IMG/VR virus record: IMGVR_UViG_3300036768_001879
Span: 1-64,000 of that record
Strand: one strand, 5' to 3'
From: a virus
Length of the DNA stretch: 64,000 bases
Below are positions 9,585 through 62,172 of the stretch, piece by piece; the first letter of the stretch is position 1, and each line of letters begins with the position of its first letter. The notes under the pieces are model-generated. The model did not search any database and was not told the origin of the DNA. It worked only from the letters and a program-made list of their open reading frames with translations. The position numbers and the translations under genes are program-made.

Positions 9585-10031
9585 ATGAACAAAGCCATCA
9601 TCAGTTGCGACGGGCTGGCCGAGCCGGCCAATCCGGGCCACGCTATCTGGGCCTTCGTCGCCATCCCGCCCGATGACCGCGCCGTCATCACGCAGGCCGG
9701 TTACATCGGCCCGGAGATCAGCAACAACGTGGCCGAATACTACGCCGTCGGCATGGCGCTCAAATATGCCAGCGATCAGCAGTGGCAGGCCGTCGAGGTG
9801 TGGACGGACAGCCTGGTGGTGGTCAGGCAGGTGACGGGCGACTGGCGGTGCAATCGCGATTCGCTCATCAGGCTGCGCGACCGGATCAGAACGCTCAGTC
9901 AGCAGTTCGCGCAGTTCAGTCTGCAGTGGCATCCGCGCGAGCAGAACCACCTGCCCGACCGCGCCTGCCGCGAACTTTACAAATCAATGTTCGGCGCATA
10001 TCCGCCCGAACGCGAAAGGAAACGCTCATGA
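9585..10031 (+). CDS. RNase HI-like ribonuclease
   Basis: A 148-aa RNase H-fold protein of the reverse-transcriptase-like/RNase HI type. Visible acidic residues are Asp in SCDGLAEPANPG, Glu in NNVAEYYAVGMAL, Asp in VEVWTDSLVVVRQV, and the final Asp in LPDRACRE. It would remove RNA from RNA-DNA hybrids, for example primers made by the Prim-Pol upstream. GGGAGG precedes the ATG. The stop overlaps the next start (ATGA), so it is coupled to the ParB-like gene. Confidence 0.85.
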   Translation: MNKAIISCDGLAEPANPGHAIWAFVAIPPDDRAVITQAGYIGPEISNNVAEYYAVGMALKYASDQQWQAVEVWTDSLVVVRQVTGDWRCNRDSLIRLRDRIRTLSQQFAQFSLQWHPREQNHLPDRACRELYKSMFGAYPPERERKRS

Positions 10032-11602
10032 CAACTCTGGCCGCAAACAAACCCATGAAGATTCAGCTGATTGACCACAAACTGATTGTGCCGTCGGCTG
10101 ACAATCCGCGCCGCAGCTGCGACGAGCGCAGGCTGCAGGAACTGGCCGCCTCGATCCGCGAGCACGGCATTCTGGAACCGCTGCTCGTGCGCCCGGCGCA
10201 GAAGAAACAGCGATTTGAAATCATCAGCGGCGAACGGCGCTGGCGCGCTGCCGCTATTGCCCGGCTCAGGGCGCTGCCCTGCGTCGTGATGAGCGCCGAC
10301 GATGAGCGCGCCTTTCAGATGCGCATCATCGAAAACCTTCAGCGCGAGGACGTTCATCCGCTCGACGAGGCGCAGGCTTTCGCTGAAATGATGACGCGCT
10401 TCGGGCGCGAAGCCGGGGAGATCGCTGCCGGCATCGGGCGCTCGACCGGCTACGTCTGGCGTCGCCGCCAGCTGGTTGAACTGCCCGAGCGGGCGCAGCA
10501 GGCGCTGCGTGACGGCTCGCTGCACCTGAGCGTGGCTGAACTGCTCGTCACCGTTGCGCCGGAACTGCGCGACGAGGCGCTCGGCGATCTGATGATGCCG
10601 CACGTGACCACGCTCTCAGCCGCCCGCCGCATCATCGAAGCGCGCTACCGCACGCAGCTCAAGGGCGCGCCCTTCGATGTGCGCGACGCGCAGCTGTACC
10701 CTGAAGCCGGTTCCTGCGCGCGCTGCCCGCGCAAGTCCGGCAACGCGCCGCTGCTCTTTGAGGATGAGGAACAGCCCAAAAACATCTGCCTCAATCCGGC
10801 CTGCTTTGCCGAGAAAGTCAGACGCGCCACCGGGCGCGCGCTGGAACGCGCCCGCGCTGAAGGCGTGCAGGTGATTGAAGATGAAAAGACGTTGCGGCAG
10901 ATTTTTCCTTACACTGGCAGCAGCGTTTCGACCGCGTGCGCGTTCGTTGACGCCGACGCAACCTGCCCGGATGACATTGAGCGGACGTGGCGGCAGGTGA
11001 TCGGCGACCGCCTGCCGCTCTACGCCGCAGTTGACCCGGCGGGCCGGGCGCACTTTCTCTACAAACGGCGCGAGGCGCGCCGTGCTGTCGAGGAACTGCT
11101 GCCGCCGCGCCCGGACCCGGCAGTGAATTTTCAGGATGATGACGCCGCCGACGCCGCTGCGGAGCCCAGCCCGTCCGAACTGCGCGCTGAAGCCGCGCAG
11201 CGGCTGGTAGGTTGCATTGCGCAGCGCGCGCTTGAGAACGGCATCCAGAAGGACTGGTGGCGCGCAATGTGCCGCCTGGCGCTGAAGGACTTCTTCAGCG
11301 GCAACCTTCAGGCGCTGGCCGCGCGTTACGACCTCAAACCGGGCGATGCCGCGGAAGCCGAAACCATGCTCAGCGATCTGCTGGAAACCATGACCGTGGC
11401 GCAGCTGCAGGCGTTTCTGCTCGTGCTGATTGTGGCGAGCAGTTTCGAGCGGTATCGCTATCAGGCCGGGCGGCTCGAAGATATTGAAGCCGAAGCCCGC
11501 GACCTGTTCGGCTTTGATCTGAAGACCATCTGCGAGCAGGTGACGAAGGAACGCACCGCGTCCGCCCGCGCGGCGCGCAAAACAGCGGAGGCGGCGCGAT
11601 GA
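10028..11602 (+). CDS. ParB/Spo0J-like CTPase-type protein with added zinc-knuckle-like region
   Basis: A 524-aa protein. The N-terminal ParB domain has the CTP-binding motifs GERRWRAAA and ENLQREDVHPLDEAQ, then an HTH (IAAGIGRSTGYVWRRRQLVE). A middle region contains CARCPRKSGN...CLNPACFAEK, a probable Cys4 knuckle seen in plasmid and phage ParB relatives. The C-terminal 250 residues are helical. No ParA ATPase is visible in the window, so classical partition is unlikely from this gene alone. A DNA-clamp role in replication or gene control is possible. It is coupled to its neighbours by ATGA overlaps on both sides. Confidence 0.8.
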   Translation: MTTLAANKPMKIQLIDHKLIVPSADNPRRSCDERRLQELAASIREHGILEPLLVRPAQKKQRFEIISGERRWRAAAIARLRALPCVVMSADDERAFQMRIIENLQREDVHPLDEAQAFAEMMTRFGREAGEIAAGIGRSTGYVWRRRQLVELPERAQQALRDGSLHLSVAELLVTVAPELRDEALGDLMMPHVTTLSAARRIIEARYRTQLKGAPFDVRDAQLYPEAGSCARCPRKSGNAPLLFEDEEQPKNICLNPACFAEKVRRATGRALERARAEGVQVIEDEKTLRQIFPYTGSSVSTACAFVDADATCPDDIERTWRQVIGDRLPLYAAVDPAGRAHFLYKRREARRAVEELLPPRPDPAVNFQDDDAADAAAEPSPSELRAEAAQRLVGCIAQRALENGIQKDWWRAMCRLALKDFFSGNLQALAARYDLKPGDAAEAETMLSDLLETMTVAQLQAFLLVLIVASSFERYRYQAGRLEDIEAEARDLFGFDLKTICEQVTKERTASARAARKTAEAAR

Positions 11603-18500: not shown

Positions 18501-19241
18501 ATGACTGAAAAAATGAAAACCGCCCGCGCCGCCGAACCAGCCCGGCTCAGTATCGAATACCTGCCGCTGCGCCGAATCCGCCCGCTCCCGCGCAACGCCA
18601 AACAGCACGACCTCGAAGCGATCATCGCTTCAATCAGCGAGTTCGGCTTTCTTGACCCTATCGGCATCAACAAGCGCACCGGACACGACCTTGACGGCAA
18701 TGGCCGCCTGGAGGCGCTGCAGGAGATGGAGCGGCGCGGACTGCCGCCGCCGCGCGGCATTGTGGCGGGCCGCAACGGCTGGGAAGCGCCCACCGTGGCG
18801 GGCATCAGCCTTGACGCAGCCCGCGAAGCCCGCGCCGCGCTGGCCCTGAACCGCACCAATGAACTGGGCGGTTTCGACGAGCAGCTGCTGCTTGAGATCC
18901 TGCGCGAATGCGAGCAGGAAGGCGGACTGGAAGCCACCGGCTACACGCCGGATTTCATCAACAGCCTGATGATGCGTCTTGACCCGCCCGCCGCCGCGCC
19001 CGCCGCCGCCGCGCCGGCAGTGTCGCTGGATCTGGTCAGCGCGCCGCCATCGCAGGTGCGGATGGTGCAGTTGTTCTACACCGCCGAAACGCAGCCCGTT
19101 CTGCTCAGTCGCGCTGCGGATCTGATTGACGCCGGTGCGGTGCTCGATGATGCGGGCGCGCCCGTGCGCGACCTCTCGGAACTCGTCTTCGCTTTGATTC
19201 GCAATGCTCACGCTCAACTTGAAACCGGTGCTGACCGATGA
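18501..19241 (+). CDS. ParB/Srx-domain protein of the modification cassette
   Basis: A 246-aa protein with a ParB N-terminal fold: YLPLRRIRPLPRNAKQHD, IIASISEFGFLDPIGINK, GHDLDGNGRLEALQEMERRG. It lacks the GERR-type motif of the other ParB-like protein and is of the kind often found beside phage DNA methylases and DNA-modification genes. A Pro/Ala linker leads to a C-terminal helical part. GGAG lies 7 nt upstream of the ATG. Its end overlaps the dioxygenase gene by 38 nt, placing it as the first gene of the hypermodification operon. Confidence 0.7.
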   Translation: MTEKMKTARAAEPARLSIEYLPLRRIRPLPRNAKQHDLEAIIASISEFGFLDPIGINKRTGHDLDGNGRLEALQEMERRGLPPPRGIVAGRNGWEAPTVAGISLDAAREARAALALNRTNELGGFDEQLLLEILRECEQEGGLEATGYTPDFINSLMMRLDPPAAAPAAAAPAVSLDLVSAPPSQVRMVQLFYTAETQPVLLSRAADLIDAGAVLDDAGAPVRDLSELVFALIRNAHAQLETGADR

Positions 19242-20112
19242 AGAGACGGCGGCGCTGGCCGGACGACTGCTGCCCGCCAGCGCCGCGCCGCTCGTGCTGC
19301 GCGAAGACGCCGACGTCTGGCGGCCTGACGGCACACTGCTGCTGCGCTTCCGCAAGCGCGTCTTCGGGTTTGACGAATGCCGCACGGCCTGGCGCGCGCT
19401 GCGCGCCGCCGCCGTGACGACGGACAATCGCGGCGTGGCTGCCGGAGCCATTGACGATCCCGGCGCGACCGAGCGCCCGGCTGCCATTGTCACCGGCACG
19501 CGCTACCGCCCGCTCAAGCGCGATGGCACCGTCTCGAACACCAACTTCGCAAAAAAGGTCAGGAGCGGCGTGATCGGGTTCTTTGACCGCAATGTGCGCA
19601 TCCCCTACTGCCGCCAGACGGCCTTCAACATCAACCACGCTTCAAGGTTCGCCGCCGCGCTGCCGTTTATTCAGAGCGTCAGCCGGGTCTTCCAGCGCGA
19701 ACTGCCGGAACGCTGGGCGGCGCAACGCGCCATCTGCGATCAGACGCACCCGGATTTCCTGATTCCGGGTACCGTCTTTACCACCGTCACGGTCAATCGC
19801 AACTGGCAGACCGCCGTTCACAAGGATGCCGGCGACCTGCCGGAAGGCTTCGGCGTGCTGAGCGCCCTGAGCGTGGGCGATTACGACGGCTGTTACTTCT
19901 GTTTTCCGCAGTACGGCGTGGCTGCCGATCTGCGCACGGGCGATCTGCTGCTCGGCGATGTTCACGCCTGGCACGGCAACACGCCGCTGCGCGGGCGCGG
20001 CAATTACGAGCGCCTGAGCCTGGTGTTTTACTACCGCTCGCGCATGCGCGACTGCGGCAGCGCCGAAGCCGAACTGTCCCGCGCCCGCTCCGGCCTGCGC
20101 ACCCTGCGATGA
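19204..20112 (+). CDS. TET/JBP-family Fe(II)/2-oxoglutarate DNA dioxygenase
   Basis: A 302-aa member of the TET/JBP-like phage dioxygenases. Iron ligands are H206 and D208 in QTAVHKDAGDL and a distal His in GDVHAWHGN (H254 or H257); Arg in YERLSLVFYYR would bind 2-oxoglutarate. GYDG-type strand GDYDGCYFCFPQYGVA and LRTGDLLLGDV fit the double-stranded beta helix. It would oxidise the 5-methyl group of a pyrimidine in DNA (5mC to 5hmC in tested phage TETs; thymine in JBP). It overlaps both neighbours, so it is the likely entry step of the cassette. Confidence 0.85.
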   Translation: MLTLNLKPVLTDEETAALAGRLLPASAAPLVLREDADVWRPDGTLLLRFRKRVFGFDECRTAWRALRAAAVTTDNRGVAAGAIDDPGATERPAAIVTGTRYRPLKRDGTVSNTNFAKKVRSGVIGFFDRNVRIPYCRQTAFNINHASRFAAALPFIQSVSRVFQRELPERWAAQRAICDQTHPDFLIPGTVFTTVTVNRNWQTAVHKDAGDLPEGFGVLSALSVGDYDGCYFCFPQYGVAADLRTGDLLLGDVHAWHGNTPLRGRGNYERLSLVFYYRSRMRDCGSAEAELSRARSGLRTLR

Positions 20113-20891
20113 AACTAACGCGCACATACCTGCAGCACCGCGACGTGACCGCCTTTGGCCGGGCGCTGCTGGCTGCGCGCGACCTGGATCCGGTCTATGA
20201 AGCCTTCGGCTGCGCCGGGTTCACGCGCGCCGAGCGTTCGGCGCTGGTGCTCGCCTACTCGTGGTTTTATCACGCGGGCGTGGCCGCCGACATTGCCGAG
20301 CAGCCGGACTTCTGGCGCGCCGCCCGGCTGGCCTACGAAGCCAATGCGCCGCGCGGCACCGAGCGCCGCCATTTTCGCGGCCCGCGCGGACTGGCGGCCA
20401 TTGAATGGGTGCGCGCCCGTTTTGCCACGCCCGAAGCCGCGCTCGATGCGCTGCTTGCGCCGACCTTTGGCGCTTTCCGCGCGCGGGCGCTCGCCTGGCC
20501 GCAGACCGGCGACTGGATGGCCTTCAAGCTGGGCGACCTGCTTGAGCGCGTGCGCGGCGACCGCATCTCGTTTGACGATTGCGCCCTGGCCTTTTACCGC
20601 GAACCGCGCCGCGCTGCGCTGCTGGTGGCTGAAGAACGCGGCCTGACGGCGGGCGTTGACGCGCTGGCGCGGCTGATCGTGGCGGAGTTTGACGGCGTGG
20701 CTGCCCCGCCGCACGCCGACCGGCCCTGCGGCCTGCAGGAGATTGAAACCATGCTCTGCAAGTACAAGGCGCACCGGCACGGCTTTTATCCGGTTGGCAG
20801 GGATCGCGCTGAAATCGTGGCCGCGCTGCGCGCCCGGCCCGTGATGGGCGCTGGCGCCTTCCGCGCCCGGATGCTGGAGGTGCTCGCATGA
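20109..20891 (+). CDS. aGPT-Pplase2-like amino acid:DNA transferase
   Basis: A 260-aa helical protein resembling the alpha-glutamyl/putrescinyl-thymine pyrophosphorylase clade 2 family of the DNA-glycosylase fold. Key blocks are HFRGPRGLAAIEWVR, GDWMAFKLGDLLERVRGD and the C-terminal EIETMLCKYKAHRHGFYPVG. In the thymidine-hypermodification pathways of phages such as ViI and M6, family members displace a (pyro)phosphate on 5-hydroxymethyl-dU in DNA with an amino acid. Its substrate here would be made by the dioxygenase and the kinase in the same operon. ATGA overlaps on both sides. Confidence 0.75.
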   Translation: MKLTRTYLQHRDVTAFGRALLAARDLDPVYEAFGCAGFTRAERSALVLAYSWFYHAGVAADIAEQPDFWRAARLAYEANAPRGTERRHFRGPRGLAAIEWVRARFATPEAALDALLAPTFGAFRARALAWPQTGDWMAFKLGDLLERVRGDRISFDDCALAFYREPRRAALLVAEERGLTAGVDALARLIVAEFDGVAAPPHADRPCGLQEIETMLCKYKAHRHGFYPVGRDRAEIVAALRARPVMGAGAFRARMLEVLA

Positions 20892-21790
20892 AGCCGGTTC
20901 ACCTGTCCGGCATGGGGATGCTCGGCTGCGCAGCGGCGCTGGCGCTCGATGCTGCCGGGCGCGCCTTCACCTGGGACGATGCGGACGCGGTCAGCGCCTG
21001 GCCTGCAAGCAGCGGGCAGATTGTCACCGACGCGGACTCGCCGCAGCTGGAAGCCGCCCGCGCCGCGTGGGAGGCCCGCCAGACCGGCCTTGCCCCCGAT
21101 GCGCCCGCTTACGCGCCGTTCCTGCGGCGCGCCGCCCGCTGGCTGCTGCTGAGCCGCGCGCCCGCCGCCGCCCGCGCCCAGGCGCGCCACGCCGCCGCCT
21201 GTGCAGGCAGGTTCTGGCGCGCTGGCGATGACGATCTCTTTCTGGATGTGCCCGGCTTTGTCGGCAGCGTCCGCGCCCGCTACGCGCACCTGCGGCGCAC
21301 CGGCCCGCCCGCCGACGCCCGGCCCGTCACCGCGCACGGCTTTGCCCGCGCCCGCTGCTTCCTGTGGGGCTGGAGCGCCGCCTGCGCCGAACTCTGCCTG
21401 CCTGCCGGACTTGAAGCCGCCAGCCTCCCGCTGCCCCCAGCGCTGCATGTGCGCCCGCACCGCTTTATGAGCGCCTGGGTGGTGCCGCACGGTCGCGCCG
21501 GATACCTGATCGGCACGTCCTACGTGCGCCAGACCGAGCCGCGCCAGCCGCAGCACCCCGAACAACTCATCGCCCGCACGCTCGAACGGCTGGGCAGTTA
21601 CGGCGTGCGCGTTGCGGCCACCGGCCCGGTGCGCTACGGCTGGCGCCCGCTGGCCGTCAGGGGCGAACCCCAGGTCACCGTCGCGCGCCACAACGGACAC
21701 CTGATGCTGCCCGCGCTCGGCATGTACGGCGTCACGCTGAGTCCGCTGGCTGCAGCCGCGCTGCTCCGGGCGCTGGAGGATGAGCCGTGA
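20888..21790 (+). CDS. FAD-dependent oxidoreductase/lyase (DAO-like)
   Basis: A 300-aa protein with an N-terminal Rossmann-like start, VHLSGMGMLGCAAALALDAA (GxGxxG form, residues 8-13), and a C-terminal block typical of D-amino-acid/glycine-oxidase relatives (GPVRYGWRPLAVRGEPQVTV, NGHLMLPALGMYGVTLSPLA). FAD enzymes of this kind lie beside amino acid:DNA transferases in phage hypermodification loci, where one converts an N-linked glycine on the base to an aminomethyl group. That role is inferred here. It overlaps both neighbours by a few bases. Confidence 0.7.
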   Translation: MKPVHLSGMGMLGCAAALALDAAGRAFTWDDADAVSAWPASSGQIVTDADSPQLEAARAAWEARQTGLAPDAPAYAPFLRRAARWLLLSRAPAAARAQARHAAACAGRFWRAGDDDLFLDVPGFVGSVRARYAHLRRTGPPADARPVTAHGFARARCFLWGWSAACAELCLPAGLEAASLPLPPALHVRPHRFMSAWVVPHGRAGYLIGTSYVRQTEPRQPQHPEQLIARTLERLGSYGVRVAATGPVRYGWRPLAVRGEPQVTVARHNGHLMLPALGMYGVTLSPLAAAALLRALEDEP

Positions 21791-22338
21791 AAAGACTGAT
21801 CGGTATTGGCGGCCCGCCCGGAGCCGGAAAAAGCCACCTGGTACAGTGCGCGCTGGCGGCGCTCGACCGCCACCGCTTTGTCATGCAGCAGGAAGGCACG
21901 ATCCAGTACCTGCAACACCTGCGCCTGCCGCTGATCGTGCTGGGCAGCTACGCGCCCGGCGATGCCACGCCCGGCACCGACCGCCTGCATCTGTGCGTCC
22001 ACCCGGAAGCCAAACGGTTCCTGGCGCGCCACGCCGCCGCCAGCGCCGATCTCTGCTGCCTGTTTGAAGGCGACCGCTTCTGCAATGAGCCGTTCCTTGC
22101 CGCCGCCGCCGCCTGGTTTGACGATGTGCGCCTGCTGCTGCTCGATGTGCCGCGCGCGGTGCGCGACCGCCGCTGCCAGACACGCGGTGCGCGGCAGGCT
22201 GAAACCTTTCTGCGAGGGCGGGAAACCAAATACCGCAATCTGGCCCGTCTGAGCTGCGCCGAAGTGCTGCCCAATTTCACCGCCGCGCACGCCGACGCCC
22301 TGCTTGAGCGCCTGCTGCGGCTGATTGAACTGCAATGA
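21787..22338 (+). CDS. P-loop DNA kinase, 5-hydroxymethylpyrimidine DNA kinase type
   Basis: A 183-aa small P-loop kinase. Walker A is GGPPGAGKS (residues 8-16); PGTDRLHLCVHPEAKRFL and CLFEGDRFCN (91-100) match the 5-hmdU DNA kinase family. These enzymes phosphorylate the hydroxymethyl group of the base within DNA, activating it for replacement by an amino acid. Here the hydroxymethyl base would come from the dioxygenase, because no thymidylate-synthase-like hydroxymethylase is seen. It is coupled by overlap to the FAD gene and the glycosyltransferase. Confidence 0.8.
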   Translation: MKRLIGIGGPPGAGKSHLVQCALAALDRHRFVMQQEGTIQYLQHLRLPLIVLGSYAPGDATPGTDRLHLCVHPEAKRFLARHAAASADLCCLFEGDRFCNEPFLAAAAAWFDDVRLLLLDVPRAVRDRRCQTRGARQAETFLRGRETKYRNLARLSCAEVLPNFTAAHADALLERLLRLIELQ

Positions 22339-23165
22339 ATTACCGGATTGTCATTCCGACACACCGCCGCGCCGCCACGCTGGGCGCGCGCACCCTGAAA
22401 TGGCTGCGCGCCTGCGGCGTGCCCGATGCGCGCGTGACCCTGCTGGTCAGCGACGAAGCCGACGCCGAGGCTTATCGCGCGGCCTACCCGGACTGCTGCG
22501 TGCCGACGGTGCCGGCCTTTGACTGTCTGCGCGACAAACTGAACTACCTGCACCGCACGGCCCGGCCCGGCGAACGCGTGCTGGTCATCGAGGACGATCT
22601 GACCGGACTGCTCCGCAAGCGCGACAACCGCGCGCCGCTCACGCACGACCTTGACGCGCTCGTGGCGGACGGCTTTGCCGCCTGCGAGCGCTACGGGACG
22701 GCGCTCTGGGGCGTCACGCCCACCAACAACGGACTCTTTATGAAGGAGCGCGCCAGCGCCGAACTGCGCTTCTGTGTCGGGTACTGCTACGGCTTTGTCG
22801 GAACCGGCGACCCGCGCCTCGAAGTCACGCTCAACTTCAAACACGACTATGAACGCACGCTGCTTTACTTCATTCGCTATGGCGCGGTGGCGCGCCTGAA
22901 CTACGTGGGCGTTGAAACGCGCAGCTTCAGCGCGCCGGGCGGGCTTCAGGAGTATTCCGCGGAAGCCCGCCGCGCCGCCGAACTGGCCAGCAACGAATAC
23001 CTGCTGCGCCGTTACCCGCATCTGGTGGCGCGCGCGGCGCGCCTGAATCGCACGCTCAACGCTTACACCGAACTTCGTCTGAATGCCCGCGCCAGCCGCG
23101 ATACCGACTGGATGGCGCTGCAAAGGCTGCACGATGCTGCAAATGGTTTTCCCGGCTGCTGGTAA
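22335..23165 (+). CDS. TET-associated glycosyltransferase (GT-A fold)
   Basis: A 276-aa GT-A-like enzyme. IVIPTHRRAATLGARTLKWL at the start, VTLLVSDEADAEAY, and the acidic metal-binding block VLVIEDDLTGL (DD at about 87-88) fit the TET-associated glycosyltransferase family, which adds sugars to 5hmC in DNA. Further blocks are WGVTPTNNGLFM and LNFKHDYERTLLYF. It is in an ATGA overlap with the kinase and overlaps the next gene by 32 nt. It would act on oxidised base, on a product of the amino acid branch, or on a different set of sites. Confidence 0.8.
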   Translation: MNYRIVIPTHRRAATLGARTLKWLRACGVPDARVTLLVSDEADAEAYRAAYPDCCVPTVPAFDCLRDKLNYLHRTARPGERVLVIEDDLTGLLRKRDNRAPLTHDLDALVADGFAACERYGTALWGVTPTNNGLFMKERASAELRFCVGYCYGFVGTGDPRLEVTLNFKHDYERTLLYFIRYGAVARLNYVGVETRSFSAPGGLQEYSAEARRAAELASNEYLLRRYPHLVARAARLNRTLNAYTELRLNARASRDTDWMALQRLHDAANGFPGCW

Positions 23166-24918
23166 GGGCGAACGTTTCAGGCGCGCCGGTTGGCGCGACG
23201 ACAAGCCCTTTATCCGGATCAATGGCCTGACGCTGCTTGAACGCGCGCTGGCGGCTGCCGCCTGCCCGCCCGAGGTGCGCGTCCTGGTGGCGCTCGGCGA
23301 CAAGTACCGCAACACGCCGCTCGTTGACCGGCTGGCCGCGCAATGGCGCTTTGAACCGGTCTTTGTGCCGCCCACCGGGAGCGTCGTTGACACGCTGCTG
23401 GCCTGCGCCAGCCGTCTTGACCCGGAACTGCCGCTCGTCTGCCACGACGCCGATATTCAGCTGCCGCTCGGCTGGCCGCTCCCGCCCGGCAACGGCCTCT
23501 GGTGGACTCCCGACGAAGGACCGCTGGCGCAGTACAGCTACCTGCGCGCCGATCAGGCCGGGCGTCTGCTTGAGATCCGCGAAAAACAGCGCATCTCGGA
23601 GCGGGCCTGTTGCGGCGTCTACAAGTTTGAGCGCGCGGGCGAATTCCTTGCCGCCGCCCGCGCGACCACCGCGCCCGGCGAACGCTACCTCTCGCACGTC
23701 ATTGCCCGGATGCTCGCTGCAGGCGCTACCTTTCACGCCTGGCCCGCTACCGGCTGGATCAACAACGGAACTCCGCAGCAGCTGGCCCTGAATGCCGCCG
23801 CCCGGCCCGCCCGGCCTCATACATTCTGCTTTGACCTCGATGGCACGCTCTGCGGCCCGCCCGCCACGCCCGGCGATTACAGCACCTGCCGCCCGCTGGA
23901 ACGCAACATCGCCTGGCTGCGCGCCCTGCACGCCGCCGGACACCGGATCATCATTCATACAGCCCGCCGCATGCTCACGCATCGCGGCAATGTGCAGGCC
24001 GTCGTTGACGAGATTGGCGAACTGACGCGCCAGCAGCTGCGCGATTTCGGCGTGCCTTACCACGAACTCGTCTTCGGCAAGCCTTACGCCGATTTCTACG
24101 TTGATGACAAAGCCGTCAATGCCGAACTCGACCCGGAGCGCGAAACCGGCTTTTACGCCAGCACCGGCCTCGCGCCCAGGCACTTCAATCAGATCACCCA
24201 AACCGCGCGCGGGCTGCGCAAGACCGGCGACCTGCGCGGCGAACGGTTCTTCTATGAGAACTGCCCGGAGGACTTCAGGCCGTTTCTGCCCCTCATTCAC
24301 GACGCCTCGGACGCGGCCATCGAAATGCAGCGCCTGCCCGGCCCCACTTACGCGCAGGCCCTCGTCAGCAATGAACTCGCGCCCGCTGACCTGCGCGCCG
24401 CGCTCGATGCGCTCGCCGTGCTGCATCGCCAGCCGGACGCGGGCGCTGACACCGCCAGCCTCTATCTGGAAAGGCTCGAAGCCCGCTACGCGCAGGCTCC
24501 GGCGCTCTACGCCGCCCTGCCACAGAGCGCCCGCGTCCTTGAAGACCTGCGCGCCTTCTTTGAAGGTTACGCCTTTGAGCCGCGCCGGATGCACGGCGAC
24601 CCGGTGTTCGGCAACATTCTGTTCGGCCCGCGCTTCATTGATCCGCGCGGGCGCGTCGGCGCGCAGCTGACGCTCTGCGGCGACCCGAACTATGATCGCG
24701 CCAAGCTCCTGCAGTCGCTCACTGGCTACGATGCCGTCCTGCTCGGACGCGCGCCAGCCCGGCGCACCGTTGAACGCCTGATTGCTGAACTCAATCCGCA
24801 GCCGGACGTCTGGCGCATTACGCTGGCGCATTACTTCTGTCTGCTGCCGCTGCACACCGAACTGCATCAGGAGTTCTGGCAGATCGCCCTTGAACTTCAT
24901 CGCCAGTGGTTCGGCTGA
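23134..24918 (+). CDS. Trifunctional nucleotidyltransferase-HAD phosphatase-APH kinase fusion
   Basis: A 594-aa fusion of three domains. Residues 1-225 are a sugar-nucleotidyltransferase (MVFPAAGKGERFRRAG, then DKPFIRINGLTLLERAL). Residues about 228-345 are a HAD phosphatase (FCFDLDGTLC, IIHTARRM, GKPYADFYVDDKAV). Residues about 375-594 are an aminoglycoside-phosphotransferase-like kinase (MHGDPVFGNILFG, FIDPRGRVG). Similar sets in capsule loci phosphorylate, trim and NDP-activate a small polyol or sugar. Being coupled to the glycosyltransferase, it probably makes the activated donor used for DNA decoration. Start at 23134 is preferred because it begins at the first domain. Confidence 0.75.
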   Translation: MLQMVFPAAGKGERFRRAGWRDDKPFIRINGLTLLERALAAAACPPEVRVLVALGDKYRNTPLVDRLAAQWRFEPVFVPPTGSVVDTLLACASRLDPELPLVCHDADIQLPLGWPLPPGNGLWWTPDEGPLAQYSYLRADQAGRLLEIREKQRISERACCGVYKFERAGEFLAAARATTAPGERYLSHVIARMLAAGATFHAWPATGWINNGTPQQLALNAAARPARPHTFCFDLDGTLCGPPATPGDYSTCRPLERNIAWLRALHAAGHRIIIHTARRMLTHRGNVQAVVDEIGELTRQQLRDFGVPYHELVFGKPYADFYVDDKAVNAELDPERETGFYASTGLAPRHFNQITQTARGLRKTGDLRGERFFYENCPEDFRPFLPLIHDASDAAIEMQRLPGPTYAQALVSNELAPADLRAALDALAVLHRQPDAGADTASLYLERLEARYAQAPALYAALPQSARVLEDLRAFFEGYAFEPRRMHGDPVFGNILFGPRFIDPRGRVGAQLTLCGDPNYDRAKLLQSLTGYDAVLLGRAPARRTVERLIAELNPQPDVWRITLAHYFCLLPLHTELHQEFWQIALELHRQWFG

Positions 24919-28783: not shown

Positions 28784-31700
28784 ATGAATCCCGTTACCGT
28801 CAACGTTCAGAATGCTGCGCTGCCCGTCACCATTGGCGTGCCGTTTGCGCAGTCCGAAAACCTGCTCTCAACCGCCGCGCTGCGCGTCAGAAACCCGTCC
28901 GGCACGGTCATTGCGGGCAGCGGCGCGTTTGAAATCCTCGCCCGCTGGGGCGGGCTCAAAACCGACACCGCCAGGCCGATAATGATCGCGCTCGTGTCGT
29001 TCAAGCCTTCAACCGGCGTCGCCGGTAACTACACCATTGACGACAGCAACGCCAGCTTCACGCCCGCGCCGATCACCGTCACCAGCAATCCAGGCGACTA
29101 CCGCGTCCAGAACGGCGCGATTGATGTGCGGATCAGCAAGACGTCCACCGATCTGCTCACCTCTTTTCAGATCAGCGGCAGCGAGCAGCTGGCTGCCGGA
29201 TCAAAGCCGCGCCTGAACGCGGTGGCGTCGGCCAGCGCCATCAGGACCACCGGCGTTGCTGACGTCGGCACCAACACGATCACCGTCACTTCGACCACCG
29301 GCCTGTCGGTCGGCACGCAGATCAGGCTCAAATGGGACGGCCCGCTGCTCTACATTCAGGGCGGCGCGGTCGTGGCGAGCGGCGATTACGGTTTCTACTC
29401 CAACTCGCTGACGCCCAAGCGCACCTTCTGGATCAATCGCGGCGGCGCAAATCAGGAATCGCTGACGGCGGATTTCGTCTATCCCGGCTCAGGCACCTCA
29501 GAGTGGTACTACGTCAGCGCGCCTGCCAATTCGCACAGCGCCGGCGAACTGGTCGAGGACAAGTCGCTGCTCGACGACTTCAACGCCAGCGGCGCTTACA
29601 CAATCAACGCCATCAACGGCAACACGCTCACGCTCAATCGCAATCTCGGCGTGCGCGTGATCGAGAACACGCAGCTTGAAGTGCAGGGCGGCGGCACCGG
29701 CCCGGTGACTGCGCCCTTCCAGCCCGCCAGCTGCAGCGTTGAACGGCAAACCGATAATTACGTGGTCATCAGGCAGGTCGGCCACTTCACCAGCAACGTC
29801 AATCCGCTGGTTGAAGTCACCGTGCGCTGGCACATCTACAACGGAATGTCGTGGCTGCGCGCGCAGGTGCGCCTGAACAACTACTCCGCCGACACCAGTG
29901 TCACTGCCACCGATGCGCCCTTTGATGAACTGCGCATGGACGTGCCAACGGCCAGCGCCGCGTCGGGCAGCGATGCGGTGTCGGACAACGCTACAGCCGT
30001 CAGCCGCGTCAACGCCGGAACCACAACCGTGACGCTCTCGGCGGGTTCGTTCCAGATTTCGGTGCCGGAGTTTGCCGAGAAGTACCCGAAGAGCATCGCG
30101 GGCGATGCGGGCGGTTTTCACTTCGGCATCTTTCCGGCTGCGACAAATCAGCAGCTGCCCGGCGACCGCGCCATCTCGCACGAATTCTATCTCGGCAATT
30201 CAACCGCCACTCCAGCCACGCTCACCAGCCGCCCGACCAACTGCGCGCTGCAGCCTTCGTATGTCGTCAACACGCAGGCGCACCGCGCCGTGACAACCGT
30301 GGCGCAGACTTACACGGCGGCGCAGTTCGGCGGCGACTCCGAGATGGCTGAAGCCGCCAACCGCAACGAGGATGCGCTGGCCGTGATCTATGACGTCTCA
30401 AAGGCGGTCGCCTACGGCTCGCAGCCCGCGCAGTCGGCAAAGGAGTTTCGCAATCGCGGCGAGTACGGCGACGGTTACGGCTGGACGATCTTCGGCACCT
30501 TCCCCTGGCAGGACAATCCGCGCTGCTACAACCACTACGACACGCAGTTTCACACGCTCGTGCAGTATCTGCGCACGGGCGATCTGCGCGCGCTGCAGCT
30601 CGGCTCCGAGTGCGCCCGCTACATGGCCGATTACGGGATGATCCAGTCGCGCATCTTCGGCGGCGGCAACCCGTACAACCAGTATCAGGGGCTGGCGCGC
30701 TTTGAGGATGAAGACCGGCGCGGGCCGGGCTTTCTCTCGCACACGTGGCACGAAGGGCTGTGGCTCTACTGGGCCGTCACCGGCGATCAGGCGGTGTTTG
30801 ACTCAGCCATGCTGACCATTGAAGGCAGGGATCAGACCGGCGCTACGCAACCCGGCTGCCTGAAGGCTGCCGACTGGTATCCGGCTGGCACGGGCCTCTA
30901 TCCCGGCTCCTACTACGGACACGGCGCGAGCTTCAACATCTGGACGGGCAATGACGGCACGCGCTGGACCGGCTGGCCCATCCTCGGCCTGATGGCTGCT
31001 TATCGCTACACCGGGCGCAGCGACCTGCTCACGCTGGCCGGGCAGTATGCCAGCTGCTTCACGCAGACTGAAGCGGCGCAGGGCAATCACGGCTACTTCA
31101 TTCAGGACGGCAGCTTCGCTACAGCCAATTCGGCTGATCCGCCGGGCAACGCGCCGAGCTTCATTCAGTACGGCTACACGCTGATCGGCATGATCGAGTA
31201 CTGGAAGCAGACCGGCGACCAGACGGTGCGCGATTACATCAGCCGCGTCGGGCAGATGCTGCTCAAGGGCGATTCGCAGGCGGCGCAGGCGCGCAAGGAT
31301 AACGCGCTGAGCGGCGGCGTGAGCTTCGCCGGACAGTATCTGGCTATTGAAGGCAACTACTTCTGGTGGCCGCTCGCGCAGACGACGCTCGCCTCCGGCA
31401 TCAACAACACGGTGACTTCGATCACGCTCACCGACGCCTCGAAATTTCCGTTCTGGGGCTCAATCGCCATTGATGACGGCATCAACATCGAATACTGCAC
31501 GGTCAGCAATCGCAGCGGCAACACGCTCACTGTCGCGCGCGGCAAGTACGGCTCGACGGCGCGCACGTGGAGCGCGGGCGTGACGGTCTACGTGCAGGCG
31601 TGGGACGGCGACGGGCCGACGAGCGGGCGCGCCATTGACTACCTGCCCTGCATCAGCACGGCGGCCAAAATTACCGGCGACACCGGACTGCAGAACCTCG

Positions 31701-34138
31701 CCAAACGCATCTTCAAGGACACGGCCTTCTATTTCGGGCAGGGCGGGCCGCTGCTCAACCCGGCTGTGCGGTTCCCGATCAATCTGCGCACGGACGGTTT
31801 TCCGGGCAGTTCGATCAAGAACTGGGGGCAGCGCGCCTACGGCGTCGAGCAGTATCTGGCCGATGTGCTGGCCAATCCGGTGCCGAGCCTTTCATCAATC
31901 AGCCCGAATACGAAGACAGCCGGTGATCCGCAGTTCACGCTCACGGTCAACGGGCTGAACTTCATCAGCACTTCAGCGGTGCGCGTCGGCGGCAGCGACC
32001 GCACGACGACCTTCATTTCAGCCACGCAGCTGCAGGCGACGATTCCGGCCTCGGACGTTGCCGCGCCGGGCACGCTGCAGATTACGGTCTTCAATCCGGG
32101 GCCGGGCGGCGGCACCTCGAACGCCGTCACTCTGACGGTCAACGCGGGCGCGGGCGCGCCCACGATCAGCAGCCTGTCGCCTGCGTCGGCAGTGGCGGGC
32201 GGCGCGCAGTTCACGCTCACCGTCAATGGCGCGAATTACCAGAACGGCGCAGTAGTACGGTGGAACGGCTCGAACCGCACGACGACCTTTGTTTCGGCCA
32301 CGCAGCTGCAGGCCACCATCCCTGCTACCGACATTGCTTCGCCCGGCTCGGCTACGGTCACGGTGCAGAACCCGGACGCACAGATCAGCAACGGCGCTAC
32401 CTTTACGATCACCGCGCCAGCGCCCACGATCAGCAGCCTGTCGCCCGCGTCGGCTACAGCCGGTGGCGCGCAGTTCACGCTCACGGTCAACGGCTCGAAC
32501 TTCCAGAGCGGCTCGACCGTGCGCTGGAACGGCTCAAACCGCACGACGACCTTTGTGTCCTCGACGCAGCTGCAGGCGACGATTCTGGCCGCTGATATTG
32601 CTTCGCCCGGTTCGGCTACGGTTACGGTTGTTAATCCCGACAACCAGGTCAGCAACGGCGCGACGTTCACCATCAACAGCGCTTCCGCGCCCACGATCAG
32701 CAGCCTGTCGCCCGCGTCAGCGGTGGCGGGCGGCGCGCAGTTCACGCTCACCGTCAATGGCGCGAATTACCAGAACGGCGCAGTAGTACGGTGGAACGGC
32801 TCGAACCGCACGACGACCTTTGTTTCGGCCACGCAGCTGCAGGCCACCATCCCTGCTACTGACATTGCCTCGCCCGGCTCGGCTACGGTTACGGTGCAAA
32901 ACCCGGACGCGCAGATCAGCAACGGCGCAACGTTCACCATCAACGCCGCCAACAATCCGGTGCCGGTGCTCAACGGCATTTCGCCTTCAGCGGCTTCAGC
33001 GGGCGGGCCGCAGTTCACGCTGACGCTCAATGGGTCGAGTTTTATTTCTTCCAGTCAGGCCAGGTGGAACGGCCAGCCGCTGACCACGACCTTCGTTTCA
33101 ACCACGCAGCTGACAGCGGTTGTTCCGGCTTCGCTGATCGCGGTGCCGGGCAGCGCGACCGTGACAGTCTTCAACCCAACGCCGGGCGGCGGAACGTCAG
33201 CCGGGCGGATATTCACGATTTCGGGAGGCCAGAGTATGCCGCCACCAGGGATCACTTCGCTCTCGCCTTCGCAGGTGGTCATCAACAGCGGTTCGTTTAC
33301 GCTCGTGGTTACGGGCGGGGATTTCGTTTCGGGCATTGCGGGCAAGATTCAGAACGTGCAGCGCCCGACCACCTTCGTCAGCGAATCGCAGTGCAACATT
33401 GCGGTGCAGAACGCCGACATTCAGACGCTCGGCCCGCACGATGTGGTCGTTGTCAATCCGGACGGTCAGGCGAGCAACGTCGTGCAGTTTCAGGTAGTCA
33501 ATCCTTCAGGGCCGACAATCTACGGGCTGTCGCCGTCGAGCGCGCCGGAAGGCACGCAGGGGCTGACGCTCGTGGTCACGGGCGTCAACTTCGCTTCGGG
33601 CGCAGCGGTCAGAGTCAACGGGCAGGCGCGTTCGACGAGCTTCGTCAGCAGCACACAGCTGCGGGCGCAGCTCACAACAGCCGACCTGCAGACGCCCGGC
33701 GTGCTCAATATCACGGTCGCCAATCCGAACAACGACGTCTCTCCGGCTGTCGGCTTCACGGTGATTGCGGTCAACCGCTTTGCGCCCACGCCCACCATCA
33801 GGCCGAAACTTGAAACCATCTACCTTGAAACGGGCGACAAGTTCAGCGCCCGGCGCGTCTTCCGGCGCGGCTCGGACATTCTGGATCTGACCGGCTGCAA
33901 GGCCGAGTTCGAGGTCAAACGTTCGCGCACCGCGCCCGCCACCGATGCGCCGCTCCTGCTGCTGACGTCGGACGCGGGCGACATTGCGCTCGACCTGAAC
34001 GCGGGCAGCATGACGGTCAACGCCAGCGAACTGACCATCAATCAGCAGCAGTGGCGGCTCGGGTGGTATCGCTGGCGCGTCATTACCGCTGCCGGCGAAC
34101 ACGTCACGCTGCTGCACGGCGAAATCTGGAGGCGCTGA
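28784..34138 (+). CDS. Large virion fibre/depolymerase: PcRGLX-like lyase domains, IPT/TIG repeats, BppU-like C-terminus
   Basis: A 1784-aa protein. The N-terminal region (ALPVTIGVPFAQSENLLSTA, FEILARWGG) resembles the RIFT-barrel domain of exo-rhamnogalacturonan-lyase (PcRGLX/YetA-like) proteins. Residues about 510-1015 look like an alpha-barrel catalytic part (WYPAGTGLYPGSYYGHGASF, RWTGWPILGLMAAYRYTGR). Residues about 1030-1660 are seven or so IPT/TIG Ig-like repeats (PTISSLSPASA...GGAQFTLTVNG). The last 110 residues (KLETIYLETGDKFSARRVF) resemble a BppU-type attachment domain. It probably binds and degrades a host surface polysaccharide. Substrate is inferred from family only. Confidence 0.7.
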   Translation: MNPVTVNVQNAALPVTIGVPFAQSENLLSTAALRVRNPSGTVIAGSGAFEILARWGGLKTDTARPIMIALVSFKPSTGVAGNYTIDDSNASFTPAPITVTSNPGDYRVQNGAIDVRISKTSTDLLTSFQISGSEQLAAGSKPRLNAVASASAIRTTGVADVGTNTITVTSTTGLSVGTQIRLKWDGPLLYIQGGAVVASGDYGFYSNSLTPKRTFWINRGGANQESLTADFVYPGSGTSEWYYVSAPANSHSAGELVEDKSLLDDFNASGAYTINAINGNTLTLNRNLGVRVIENTQLEVQGGGTGPVTAPFQPASCSVERQTDNYVVIRQVGHFTSNVNPLVEVTVRWHIYNGMSWLRAQVRLNNYSADTSVTATDAPFDELRMDVPTASAASGSDAVSDNATAVSRVNAGTTTVTLSAGSFQISVPEFAEKYPKSIAGDAGGFHFGIFPAATNQQLPGDRAISHEFYLGNSTATPATLTSRPTNCALQPSYVVNTQAHRAVTTVAQTYTAAQFGGDSEMAEAANRNEDALAVIYDVSKAVAYGSQPAQSAKEFRNRGEYGDGYGWTIFGTFPWQDNPRCYNHYDTQFHTLVQYLRTGDLRALQLGSECARYMADYGMIQSRIFGGGNPYNQYQGLARFEDEDRRGPGFLSHTWHEGLWLYWAVTGDQAVFDSAMLTIEGRDQTGATQPGCLKAADWYPAGTGLYPGSYYGHGASFNIWTGNDGTRWTGWPILGLMAAYRYTGRSDLLTLAGQYASCFTQTEAAQGNHGYFIQDGSFATANSADPPGNAPSFIQYGYTLIGMIEYWKQTGDQTVRDYISRVGQMLLKGDSQAAQARKDNALSGGVSFAGQYLAIEGNYFWWPLAQTTLASGINNTVTSITLTDASKFPFWGSIAIDDGINIEYCTVSNRSGNTLTVARGKYGSTARTWSAGVTVYVQAWDGDGPTSGRAIDYLPCISTAAKITGDTGLQNLAKRIFKDTAFYFGQGGPLLNPAVRFPINLRTDGFPGSSIKNWGQRAYGVEQYLADVLANPVPSLSSISPNTKTAGDPQFTLTVNGLNFISTSAVRVGGSDRTTTFISATQLQATIPASDVAAPGTLQITVFNPGPGGGTSNAVTLTVNAGAGAPTISSLSPASAVAGGAQFTLTVNGANYQNGAVVRWNGSNRTTTFVSATQLQATIPATDIASPGSATVTVQNPDAQISNGATFTITAPAPTISSLSPASATAGGAQFTLTVNGSNFQSGSTVRWNGSNRTTTFVSSTQLQATILAADIASPGSATVTVVNPDNQVSNGATFTINSASAPTISSLSPASAVAGGAQFTLTVNGANYQNGAVVRWNGSNRTTTFVSATQLQATIPATDIASPGSATVTVQNPDAQISNGATFTINAANNPVPVLNGISPSAASAGGPQFTLTLNGSSFISSSQARWNGQPLTTTFVSTTQLTAVVPASLIAVPGSATVTVFNPTPGGGTSAGRIFTISGGQSMPPPGITSLSPSQVVINSGSFTLVVTGGDFVSGIAGKIQNVQRPTTFVSESQCNIAVQNADIQTLGPHDVVVVNPDGQASNVVQFQVVNPSGPTIYGLSPSSAPEGTQGLTLVVTGVNFASGAAVRVNGQARSTSFVSSTQLRAQLTTADLQTPGVLNITVANPNNDVSPAVGFTVIAVNRFAPTPTIRPKLETIYLETGDKFSARRVFRRGSDILDLTGCKAEFEVKRSRTAPATDAPLLLLTSDAGDIALDLNAGSMTVNASELTINQQQWRLGWYRWRVITAAGEHVTLLHGEIWRR
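32157..32943 (+). repeat. Near-identical IPT/TIG-coding repeats within the fibre gene
   Basis: Three consecutive blocks encode PTISSLSPASA...GGAQFTLTVNG domains, starting near 32157, 32423 and 32689. The first and third, 532 bp apart, are nearly identical over about 250 bp (only scattered silent differences), while the middle block is more diverged. Such similarity at DNA level means recent duplication or gene conversion and would allow repeat-number change by recombination. Confidence 0.75.
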
Positions 34139-60761: not shown

Positions 60762-61412
60762 ATGACCAATACCAACGAATATGGAGCGCTGATCCGGGTG
60801 CCGGAGTGGGCGCTGCTCCTGATGCAGGAGCTTGAGCAGGCCGGCGCCTGGACGACCGGCATTGAACACGTCGGCTCGCGCGGCGGCTTTCAGGCCGTCA
60901 ATATCGCCTGCTATGCTGCTGACGATGCGCGCGAGCTGGCCGTGGTGCAGGTGCGCGAAGCCTTCAAGCGCAAGGCTTCGCACTGGCTGCGCGTCAGGAA
61001 GAACTACTTCCTGATCGGGCGCAACGAGAACGGGCGCGCCTTTGCGCACGCCATTCCCTCGCCTCGTCGTTTCACTGCCGACGCCGTGGAATTTGCGCTG
61101 TGCAGCATCTGGAGATGCACGCCGCGCCAGCTTGAGCGCGTGGTGCGCAACGGCGACGTGGGCTTTGTTCCGGCGCGACGGCCCGCCGATCTTGAGCCGA
61201 TTGACTTCCCGGTCGCGCTGGCCGAATCGCACCTGGTGCGCGGGCGGCTGTTCTTCTCGCCCTCGCGCGGCGAACTCTACGCCGAGGGCGAAGCCGAGAT
61301 CCGGCACCTGAAGGAACAGCACGCACCGGCGCGCATCAGCAGCGGTTTTTATGCCGTGCGGGCAGGGTTCCGCGCGGCAACGTGGAACTTCAGCCGGCAG
61401 ACGGCTGATTGA
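60762..61412 (+). CDS. Accessory protein, unknown
   Basis: A 216-aa soluble protein with mixed structure: ALIRVPEWALLLMQELEQAG, SRGGFQAVNIACYAADDARE, SIWRCTPRQLERVVRNGDVG, ESHLVRGRLFFSPSRGELYA. No family recognised. CAGGAG precedes the ATG by 7 nt. It lies directly upstream of the DUF1874 fusion, so the two may be co-expressed anti-defence genes (inference from position). Confidence 0.5.
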   Translation: MTNTNEYGALIRVPEWALLLMQELEQAGAWTTGIEHVGSRGGFQAVNIACYAADDARELAVVQVREAFKRKASHWLRVRKNYFLIGRNENGRAFAHAIPSPRRFTADAVEFALCSIWRCTPRQLERVVRNGDVGFVPARRPADLEPIDFPVALAESHLVRGRLFFSPSRGELYAEGEAEIRHLKEQHAPARISSGFYAVRAGFRAATWNFSRQTAD

Positions 61413-61425
61413 AAGGAGAACGAAA

Positions 61426-62172
61426 ATGGCAATCGAATGGACATGGAATGATGGCCTTAGCGCAAGAAGTCGTCTGTCCGCCTGTCTGGTCGTCACGGCA
61501 GACGGCGAGGTTCACCGATTTGTCGGGAAGGATATTCCGGGCACGGTGAAAATCTTGAACGAGAAGTTCGAGAAAAACGGTAAGTGGAGCAACACCACTT
61601 ACTATTGCCTCAGCGCCGACGGCACAGCCGTCATCTCCTGGAAACAGGACTGGGAGAACGGCCTGTTCTGGCCGCAGTCAAGCTGGCAGGAAGCCATCGA
61701 GTGGGTGCGCTCGCAGGCCCCACTGGCTTCGCCCGCCAGCGTGGAAAGGCTCATCCGCGAGGAGTGGCCGAAAGCCGCTCAGAAATTCGACGAGAACGCG
61801 GCGGCGTTCTCGCAAATGAGCCAGCGCCCGACCCGGCAGCGCTACCTGCTGAACAGCGCGGTCATTACCGCGCCGGGCAGCTACGAATACGTCCTGCTGG
61901 ATCAGGACGCGGCGCGCGACTGGCTGATGGACGGGGAGTTCATCAGCACCTGCGGGTACGCCGAGACGGCGCAGGTGCTGGAAACGTTGACCGGCGTACC
62001 TGTCCCGGTCAACCGCCAGACGATCCGGATGGAGCCGGGCGATGAGGCTCTGGTGTTCCGGCTGGCATTCCAGCCCGGCCAGGCGCGCATCAACCCGGGC
62101 GACAAGGGCGCGCTGACGCCCGAATTCGTGCGCGAGAACTGCGAGTTCGGAATCCTCAGACGAACCCGCTGA
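61426..62172 (+). CDS. DUF1874 (AcrIII-1/YddF-like) domain fused to an unknown N-terminal domain
   Basis: A 248-aa protein. Residues about 143-248 are DUF1874: YLLNSAVITAPGSYEYVLLD, GVPVPVNRQTIRMEPGDEAL, VFRLAFQPGQARINPGD. Viral members (AcrIII-1) degrade cyclic tetra-adenylate and so block type III CRISPR; their catalytic His lies in a GH..(S/T) motif. Here that place reads STCGYAETAQ, with Tyr. Residues 1-140 (WTWNDGLSARSRLSACLVVT, KWSNTTYYCLSADGTAVISW) are a separate unrecognised domain. AAAGGAG precedes the ATG. It may bind a cyclic nucleotide without cleaving it, or use another residue. Confidence 0.75.
   Translation: MAIEWTWNDGLSARSRLSACLVVTADGEVHRFVGKDIPGTVKILNEKFEKNGKWSNTTYYCLSADGTAVISWKQDWENGLFWPQSSWQEAIEWVRSQAPLASPASVERLIREEWPKAAQKFDENAAAFSQMSQRPTRQRYLLNSAVITAPGSYEYVLLDQDAARDWLMDGEFISTCGYAETAQVLETLTGVPVPVNRQTIRMEPGDEALVFRLAFQPGQARINPGDKGALTPEFVRENCEFGILRRTR

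Follow-up and report, generated by a model that had tools for sequence, protein, structure and literature searches.

A TET-fed phage operon joining kinase, amino-acid transfer and glycosyltransferase genes: a putative post-replicative route to hypermodified thymine

Introduction

Which base does a phage make when a TET/JBP dioxygenase, the kinase and amino acid:DNA transferase (ADDT) of the thymidine hypermodification pathways and a TET-associated glycosyltransferase (TAGT) are all encoded in one operon? The question is raised by seven genes at positions 18501-24918 (+) of a 64,000-nucleotide stretch, hereafter the window, which covers bases 1-64000 of the 67,440-base linear IMG/VR phage record IMGVR_UViG_3300036768_001879. 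In phages with hypermodified thymidine, 5-hydroxymethyluracil (5hmU) is modified post-replicatively via a phosphorylated intermediate made by a kinase (PMC6449724), and phages carrying 5-NedU encode a 5hmU kinase together with a deoxyuridylate hydroxymethyltransferase (PMC11946847).

Here, we examined the gene content, motifs and relatives of this operon and propose that it probably directs a post-replicative hypermodification of DNA bases along a thymine route with amino-acid and sugar steps. A first-pass annotation had suggested that a 5-methyl base is oxidized by TET and then receives an amino-acid-derived group and perhaps a sugar; our analysis supports this TET-initiated scheme and narrows the base to, probably, thymine.

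Results and discussion

Gene content of the operon

Profile searches were based on Pfam, with family-specific cut-offs, and on PHROGs. The related loci fetched were numbered L001-L313, L001 being the window itself. IMG/VR scans with the window TET or flavoenzyme as a single-protein query gave no match, and alignment queries were needed; the flavoenzyme alignments themselves contained no segment of sufficient conservation for scanning.

The seven overlapping plus-strand genes announced by the first-pass annotation were recovered at the same positions, with matching families and intact catalytic motifs. They encode, in order, a ParB-like protein (18501..19241; phrog_620, 2e-27), a TET/JBP Fe(II)/2-oxoglutarate dioxygenase (19204..20112; PF12851, 4.9e-22), an ADDT of the aGPT-Pplase2 type (20109..20891; PF18724, 4.7e-10, and phrog_6364, 1e-54), a DAO-fold flavoenzyme (20888..21790), a P-loop kinase of the 5-hydroxymethyluridine DNA kinase type, Ploopntkinase3 (21787..22338; PF18751, 2.3e-8), a TAGT with a GT-A type acidic pair (22335..23165; PF20691, 3.8e-7) and a fusion of a nucleotidyltransferase, a HAD phosphatase and an APH-type kinase (23134..24918; Pfam and PHROG matches in domain order). 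The TET, ADDT, kinase and TAGT matches all lie above the Pfam cut-offs. The proteins starting at 20109, 20888 and 21787 thus fall in PF18724, the DAO fold and PF18751, rather than in unrelated families.

The operon lies directly 5' of the terminase genes, with the ADDT, flavin and kinase genes placed between TET and TAGT. Stop and start codons overlap by 4 bases at the TET/ADDT, ADDT/flavoenzyme, flavoenzyme/kinase and kinase/TAGT junctions, and the ParB/TET and TAGT/fusion overlaps are longer than 4 bases; homology places the start of the fusion gene at ATG 23134 rather than at the in-frame ATG 23083 of the longer open reading frame. As the GC content of the operon, overall and at third codon positions, agrees with that of the rest of this 66% GC phage, nothing points to a chimeric assembly, a possibility ruled out by this uniform composition together with the 4-base overlaps at the key junctions. 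A DNA-level search of phage records gave no match.

The TET retains its catalytic residues (H206-x-D208 and H257) and the 2-oxoglutarate-binding R270, and gave a weak profile match to TET2 structures. The Walker A motif of the kinase is intact; profile searches of the PDB for the kinase and the TAGT gave no informative match. Two sets of mycobacteriophage proteins resemble enzymes other than those in their annotations: the 'queuine tRNA-ribosyltransferases' of L013:807-1670 and L014:813-1691 resemble TET/JBP dioxygenases, with HxD, H and R conserved, and the 'terminase small subunits' of L013:3327-3866 and L014:3022-3588, a label that phrog_800 also bears, look like Ploopntkinase3 kinases.

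A ParB-like gene directly precedes TET in 98 of the 151 TET loci having enough upstream sequence, and its product probably works with TET as a DNA-binding or targeting protein. The window also encodes a second, full ParB (ParB_N and HTH) outside the operon (9782-11602, +).

Thymine or cytosine as the target base

The hydroxymethyl group needed by the kinase could come from a thymidylate-synthase-type dUMP hydroxymethylase or from TET, two sources that were never found together in the 96 loci carrying both ADDT and kinase. Of these loci, the hydroxymethylase is found in 0 of the 16 with TET versus 61 of the 80 without it (Fisher p = 6e-9, a value that overstates the case because the rows are not independent, some being near-copies, and many contigs are short). 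The thymidylate synthase family PF00303 was detected neither in the 67.4-kb window record nor in any TET+ADDT record searched; when whole records of cultured phages were compared, it was found in 4 of 4 non-TET hydroxymethylase controls and in 0 of 3 TET+ADDT phages.

Three other loci place TET directly within a thymidine-type cassette or next to its kinase. L041:1911-8504 (+) has the order ParB-TET-ADDT-PLP-radical SAM-kinase, that is, an M6-type 5-NedU set whose cassette includes TET; this 9.9-kb contig contains no hydroxymethylase. L309 carries, in this order, ADDT, a flavin-dependent lyase (FDL), kinase and TET, the latter being 53% identical to the window TET. Finally, L313:9530-12601 (+), on a contig of a Gammaproteobacteria metagenome-assembled genome, is a natural fusion of both enzymes in one open frame of 1024 residues (TET, residues 34-376; Ploopntkinase3-type kinase, 837-985), whose kinase domain is the closest to the window kinase among those compared (39% over 122 amino acids, 8e-20).

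The ADDT points in the same direction. It has 103 phage relatives including that of M6, with 33% identity to the M6/Yua relatives, and its tree places it inside the hydroxymethylase-linked clade (SH-aLRT 99, with long branches); the family profile matches the solved structure 8z2m, a 'Glycinyltransferase'.

From the exclusion between TET and hydroxymethylase, the lack of a detectable C5-methylase described below, the ADDT clade and the L041, L309 and L313 arrangements, TET would provide the kinase with its hydroxymethyl pyrimidine, most likely uracil derived from thymine. The same enzymes could instead build a hypermodified cytosine, TET oxidizing 5-methylcytosine (5mC) provided by the host or by an unseen phage methylase, and the 66% GC content of the phage would make cytosine the richer target. 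The C5-methylase family PF00145 was, however, absent from the window record, 11 cultured TET phages and 12 IMG/VR TET+ADDT+kinase records, and no C5-cytosine methylase was seen in the 15 other TET+ADDT+kinase loci. The search itself works, since PF00145 was found in 3 of the 51 records from the TET, TAGT and ADDT scans; these are other TET records and thereby lend the cytosine pathway some support. Against it, the 67.4-kb record and the three cultured TET+ADDT phages, all three of them complete, have neither PF00145 nor PF00303, TET stands in for the dUMP hydroxymethylase within an otherwise thymidine-specific enzyme set, and the window ADDT groups with thymidine-pathway ADDTs. A cytosine pathway, less likely because no C5-methylase was seen, is thus regarded as rather improbable.

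The flavoenzyme between ADDT and kinase

The DAO-like FAD enzyme of the first-pass annotation reached Pfam DAO only below the cut-off (4e-4), and its assignment is confirmed by its homologues and by its fold. It matches full-length proteins of the same operon in Tonitrus (1.7e-23) and LittleMunchkin (5e-18), and homologues occupy the same slot in the ADDT/kinase cassettes of six hydroxymethylase-type contigs. Its AlphaFold2 model is confident (pLDDT 80.8), with D-amino-acid and glycine oxidases as best Foldseek matches (probability 1.00), and the GxGxxG motif is intact.

Identification as an FDL by sequence was considered and rejected: an initial match to 8z2o ('Flavin-dependent lyase') stemmed from FDL-clade rows in the alignment and is lost when the enzyme is taken alone. 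Indeed, the PDB gave no credible match to the window protein alone and none to its DAO clade, whereas the FDL clade itself matches 8z2o at 1e-88, and the hhalign probability between the two clades is 14.8, over the N-terminal part only. By sequence, the flavoenzyme belongs to a DAO clade separate from the characterized flavin-dependent lyases; because of this distance, its predicted reaction, a trimming of the transferred amino acid, is deduced from fold and slot.

The glycosyltransferase and its putative donor pathway

The TAGT has an intact acidic pair, D87-D88, invariant in the alignment. It matches phrog_842, a beta-glucosyl-HMC-alpha-glucosyltransferase (2e-9), and is 32% identical to the TAGTs adjoining TET in Acadian and Prairie.

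The downstream fusion comprises, in order, an NTP_transf_3/IspD-like domain (below cut-off), a HAD domain and an APH domain (above cut-off), with intact DxDGT (HAD), HGDxxxxN and IDPRG (APH) motifs; its structure model has low confidence (pLDDT 51) and was not used. Since it joins a kinase, a phosphatase and a nucleotidyltransferase, the fusion fits the predicted role of making a nucleotide-activated sugar or alcohol donor for the TAGT. Both proteins might instead target a surface glycan or another non-DNA substrate and be mere neighbours of DNA-modification genes, as could be suspected from the resemblance of the HAD domain to capsule-biosynthesis phosphatases and from the many fusion homologues in phage contigs that have no TET or TAGT nearby. 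Yet TAGT shares a locus with TET in about 80 loci, full-length fusion homologues adjoin TET and TAGT in L216, L217 and L266, Synechococcus phage S-CBWM1 encodes the HAD, nucleotidyltransferase and APH proteins as separate genes beside TET-TAGT, and the window genes overlap, so that a non-DNA target seems very unlikely.

Relation to known systems

The first-pass annotation contrasted TET-initiated with kinase/amino-acid pathways and took their union to make a new base plausible. The union is observed here, but three complete cultured actinophages, Tonitrus (Rhodococcus; L011), LittleMunchkin (Gordonia) and Reprobate (Mycobacterium), already combine TET with kinase, ADDT and a flavoenzyme next to a ParB-like gene, which rules out that this set is unprecedented; TET, ADDT and kinase also co-occur in about a dozen IMG/VR contigs (12 records). 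As in the window, the terminase lies downstream of these cassettes, which stand at the genome start, and neither hydroxymethylase nor C5-methylase was found in the genomes, with the proviso that the window record may be incomplete. They differ from the window operon in lacking the TAGT and the fusion and in gene order, and their TETs and ADDTs are distant; in addition, the Reprobate flavoenzyme is of the FDL type, whereas that of the window belongs to the DAO clade. The five-gene set of Tonitrus was called thymine hypermodification in a 2025 paper, with one gene listed as a hypothetical protein (PMC11955845). This hypothetical protein is taken to be the flavoenzyme found here.

Pseudomonas phage M6 and Salmonella phage ViI, which make 5-NedU and 5-NeOmdU, share with the window the 5hmU-DNA kinase family and the ADDT, followed by tailoring enzymes, but they obtain 5hmU before replication, through a dUMP hydroxymethylase, where the window has TET, and the window operon is devoid of their PLP and radical-SAM genes. 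The PaMx11-type pathway, known for its glycinyltransferase and flavin-dependent lyase (PDB 8z2m and 8z2o; Wen et al. 2024, as cited in PMC11946847), has an ADDT of the same family and, in the same slot, a flavoenzyme of the DAO-superfamily fold; it differs by the separate sequence clade of the window flavoenzyme and by a hydroxymethylase in place of TET.

On the sugar side, TET and TAGT, mostly with ParB, are joined in Mycobacterium phage Acadian (ParB-TET-TAGT-deacetylase-kinase), Arthrobacter phage Prairie (ParB-TET-TAGT-deacetylase), S-CBWM1 (TET-TAGT-HAD-NTP-APH) and L217 (ParB-TET-TAGT-NTP/HAD/APH fusion, with L216 and L266 similar). Some of these share further parts with the window, namely the fusion in L217, its split form in S-CBWM1 and a kinase in Acadian, but all lack ADDT and the DAO-fold enzyme, Acadian and Prairie having a PIG-L-type deacetylase instead. 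The window pairs TET with a glycosyltransferase, as the TET-glycosyltransferase systems of cytosine hypermodification do, but without their co-occurring C5-cytosine methyltransferase. Kinetoplastid base J (JBP1/2 and a glucosyltransferase), in which TET/JBP oxidation of thymine is followed by glycosylation, has the same opening logic if the target here is thymine, and has no kinase, ADDT or flavin step.

In effect, the window operon corresponds to a Tonitrus-type cassette followed by an L217-type module. Both modules were found together in none of the 312 other stretches fetched, each scan keeping its best 80 loci, so that the rarity of the composite operon cannot be derived from this count. 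What looks new is the addition of TAGT and the NTP/HAD/APH fusion to a TET-fed cassette; a similar composite may have been described already. Mapped onto the TET tree, the partners switch at least 5 times for ADDT+kinase and at least 10 times for TAGT, and because of these frequent changes the operon likely arose by module exchange. Separately, L105:9947-16001 (+) carries ADDT, kinase and a TAGT-like gene together with a hydroxymethylase, all in a span of about 6 kb; it looks like a version of the amino-acid-plus-sugar combination that relies on the hydroxymethylase.

Proposed pathway

The genes present, their motifs, the operon structure and the co-occurrence patterns are observed; from them we infer the following chemistry. 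TET would act on thymine in phage DNA and oxidize its 5-methyl group to give 5hmU, replacing the M6/ViI-type dUMP hydroxymethylase. The Ploopntkinase3 enzyme would phosphorylate the hydroxymethyl group in DNA, the ADDT would swap the phosphate for an amino acid, probably the glycine used by its characterized relatives, and the DAO-fold flavoenzyme would trim this adduct, probably to an aminomethyl group. The TAGT would attach a sugar or related group, either to an unconverted 5hmU fraction or to the trimmed product, with the fusion providing its nucleotide-activated donor and the ParB-like protein probably binding or targeting DNA.

These options for the TAGT lead to different outcomes. One thymine might bear two substituents at once, one derived from an amino acid (aminomethyl or aminoacyl) and the other a sugar or phospho-alcohol, an idea that we hold tentatively. 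Within the same thymine route, the two modules might merely share TET and yield two products in parallel, 5hmU being converted either to an amino-acid or aminomethyl base or to a glycosylated, base-J-like one; this appears quite possible, and as probable as a single base with both decorations. Both modules do exist separately, as ParB-TET-ADDT-kinase-DAO in Tonitrus and LittleMunchkin and as ParB-TET-TAGT-NTP/HAD/APH in L217, and seem to swap, given the partner changes on the TET tree, whereas a single, tightly overlapping operon with the ADDT, flavin and kinase genes lodged between TET and TAGT argues for joint action.

Several points weigh against the thymine route with both types of decoration. 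The completeness of the window record is unclear, and a methylase might be encoded beyond its ends or by the host. The phage TETs characterized so far reportedly act on 5mC. The window ADDT sits on a long branch of its tree, the sequence link between the flavoenzyme and the lyases is confined to the nucleotide-binding region, and fusion homologues are also common away from TET and TAGT, as noted above. The substrate of the TAGT is likewise uncertain, because the T-even TAGT adds a second sugar onto an already glucosylated base (PMC13216743); the window enzyme may thus act on a substituent instead of the hydroxymethyl group itself.

Other genes of the window

A tyrosine integrase gene (1-1314, -) suggests a temperate phage. 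Between a terminase gene and the portal gene, positions 28784-34138 (+) encode a 1784-residue protein with six IPT/TIG domains. Finally, the product of 61351-62172 (+) contains an STIV B116-like domain (PF08960, 1.5e-13); this family takes its name from an archaeal virus.

Conclusions

If the proposed route is correct, thymidine hypermodification would have two mutually exclusive doors, a hydroxymethylase before replication and a JBP-like TET after it, and the long-suspected phage origin of thymine-oxidizing TET/JBP enzymes would become directly testable. A doubly decorated thymine would be a kind of base that we did not find described in the literature accessible to us, and would imply a thymine-hydroxylating phage TET. 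The operon would also provide a means of attaching chemically reactive amino and sugar moieties to the thymines of DNA that has already been made, and would indicate a new base with a possible protective role against host nucleases, whether of restriction or CRISPR systems.

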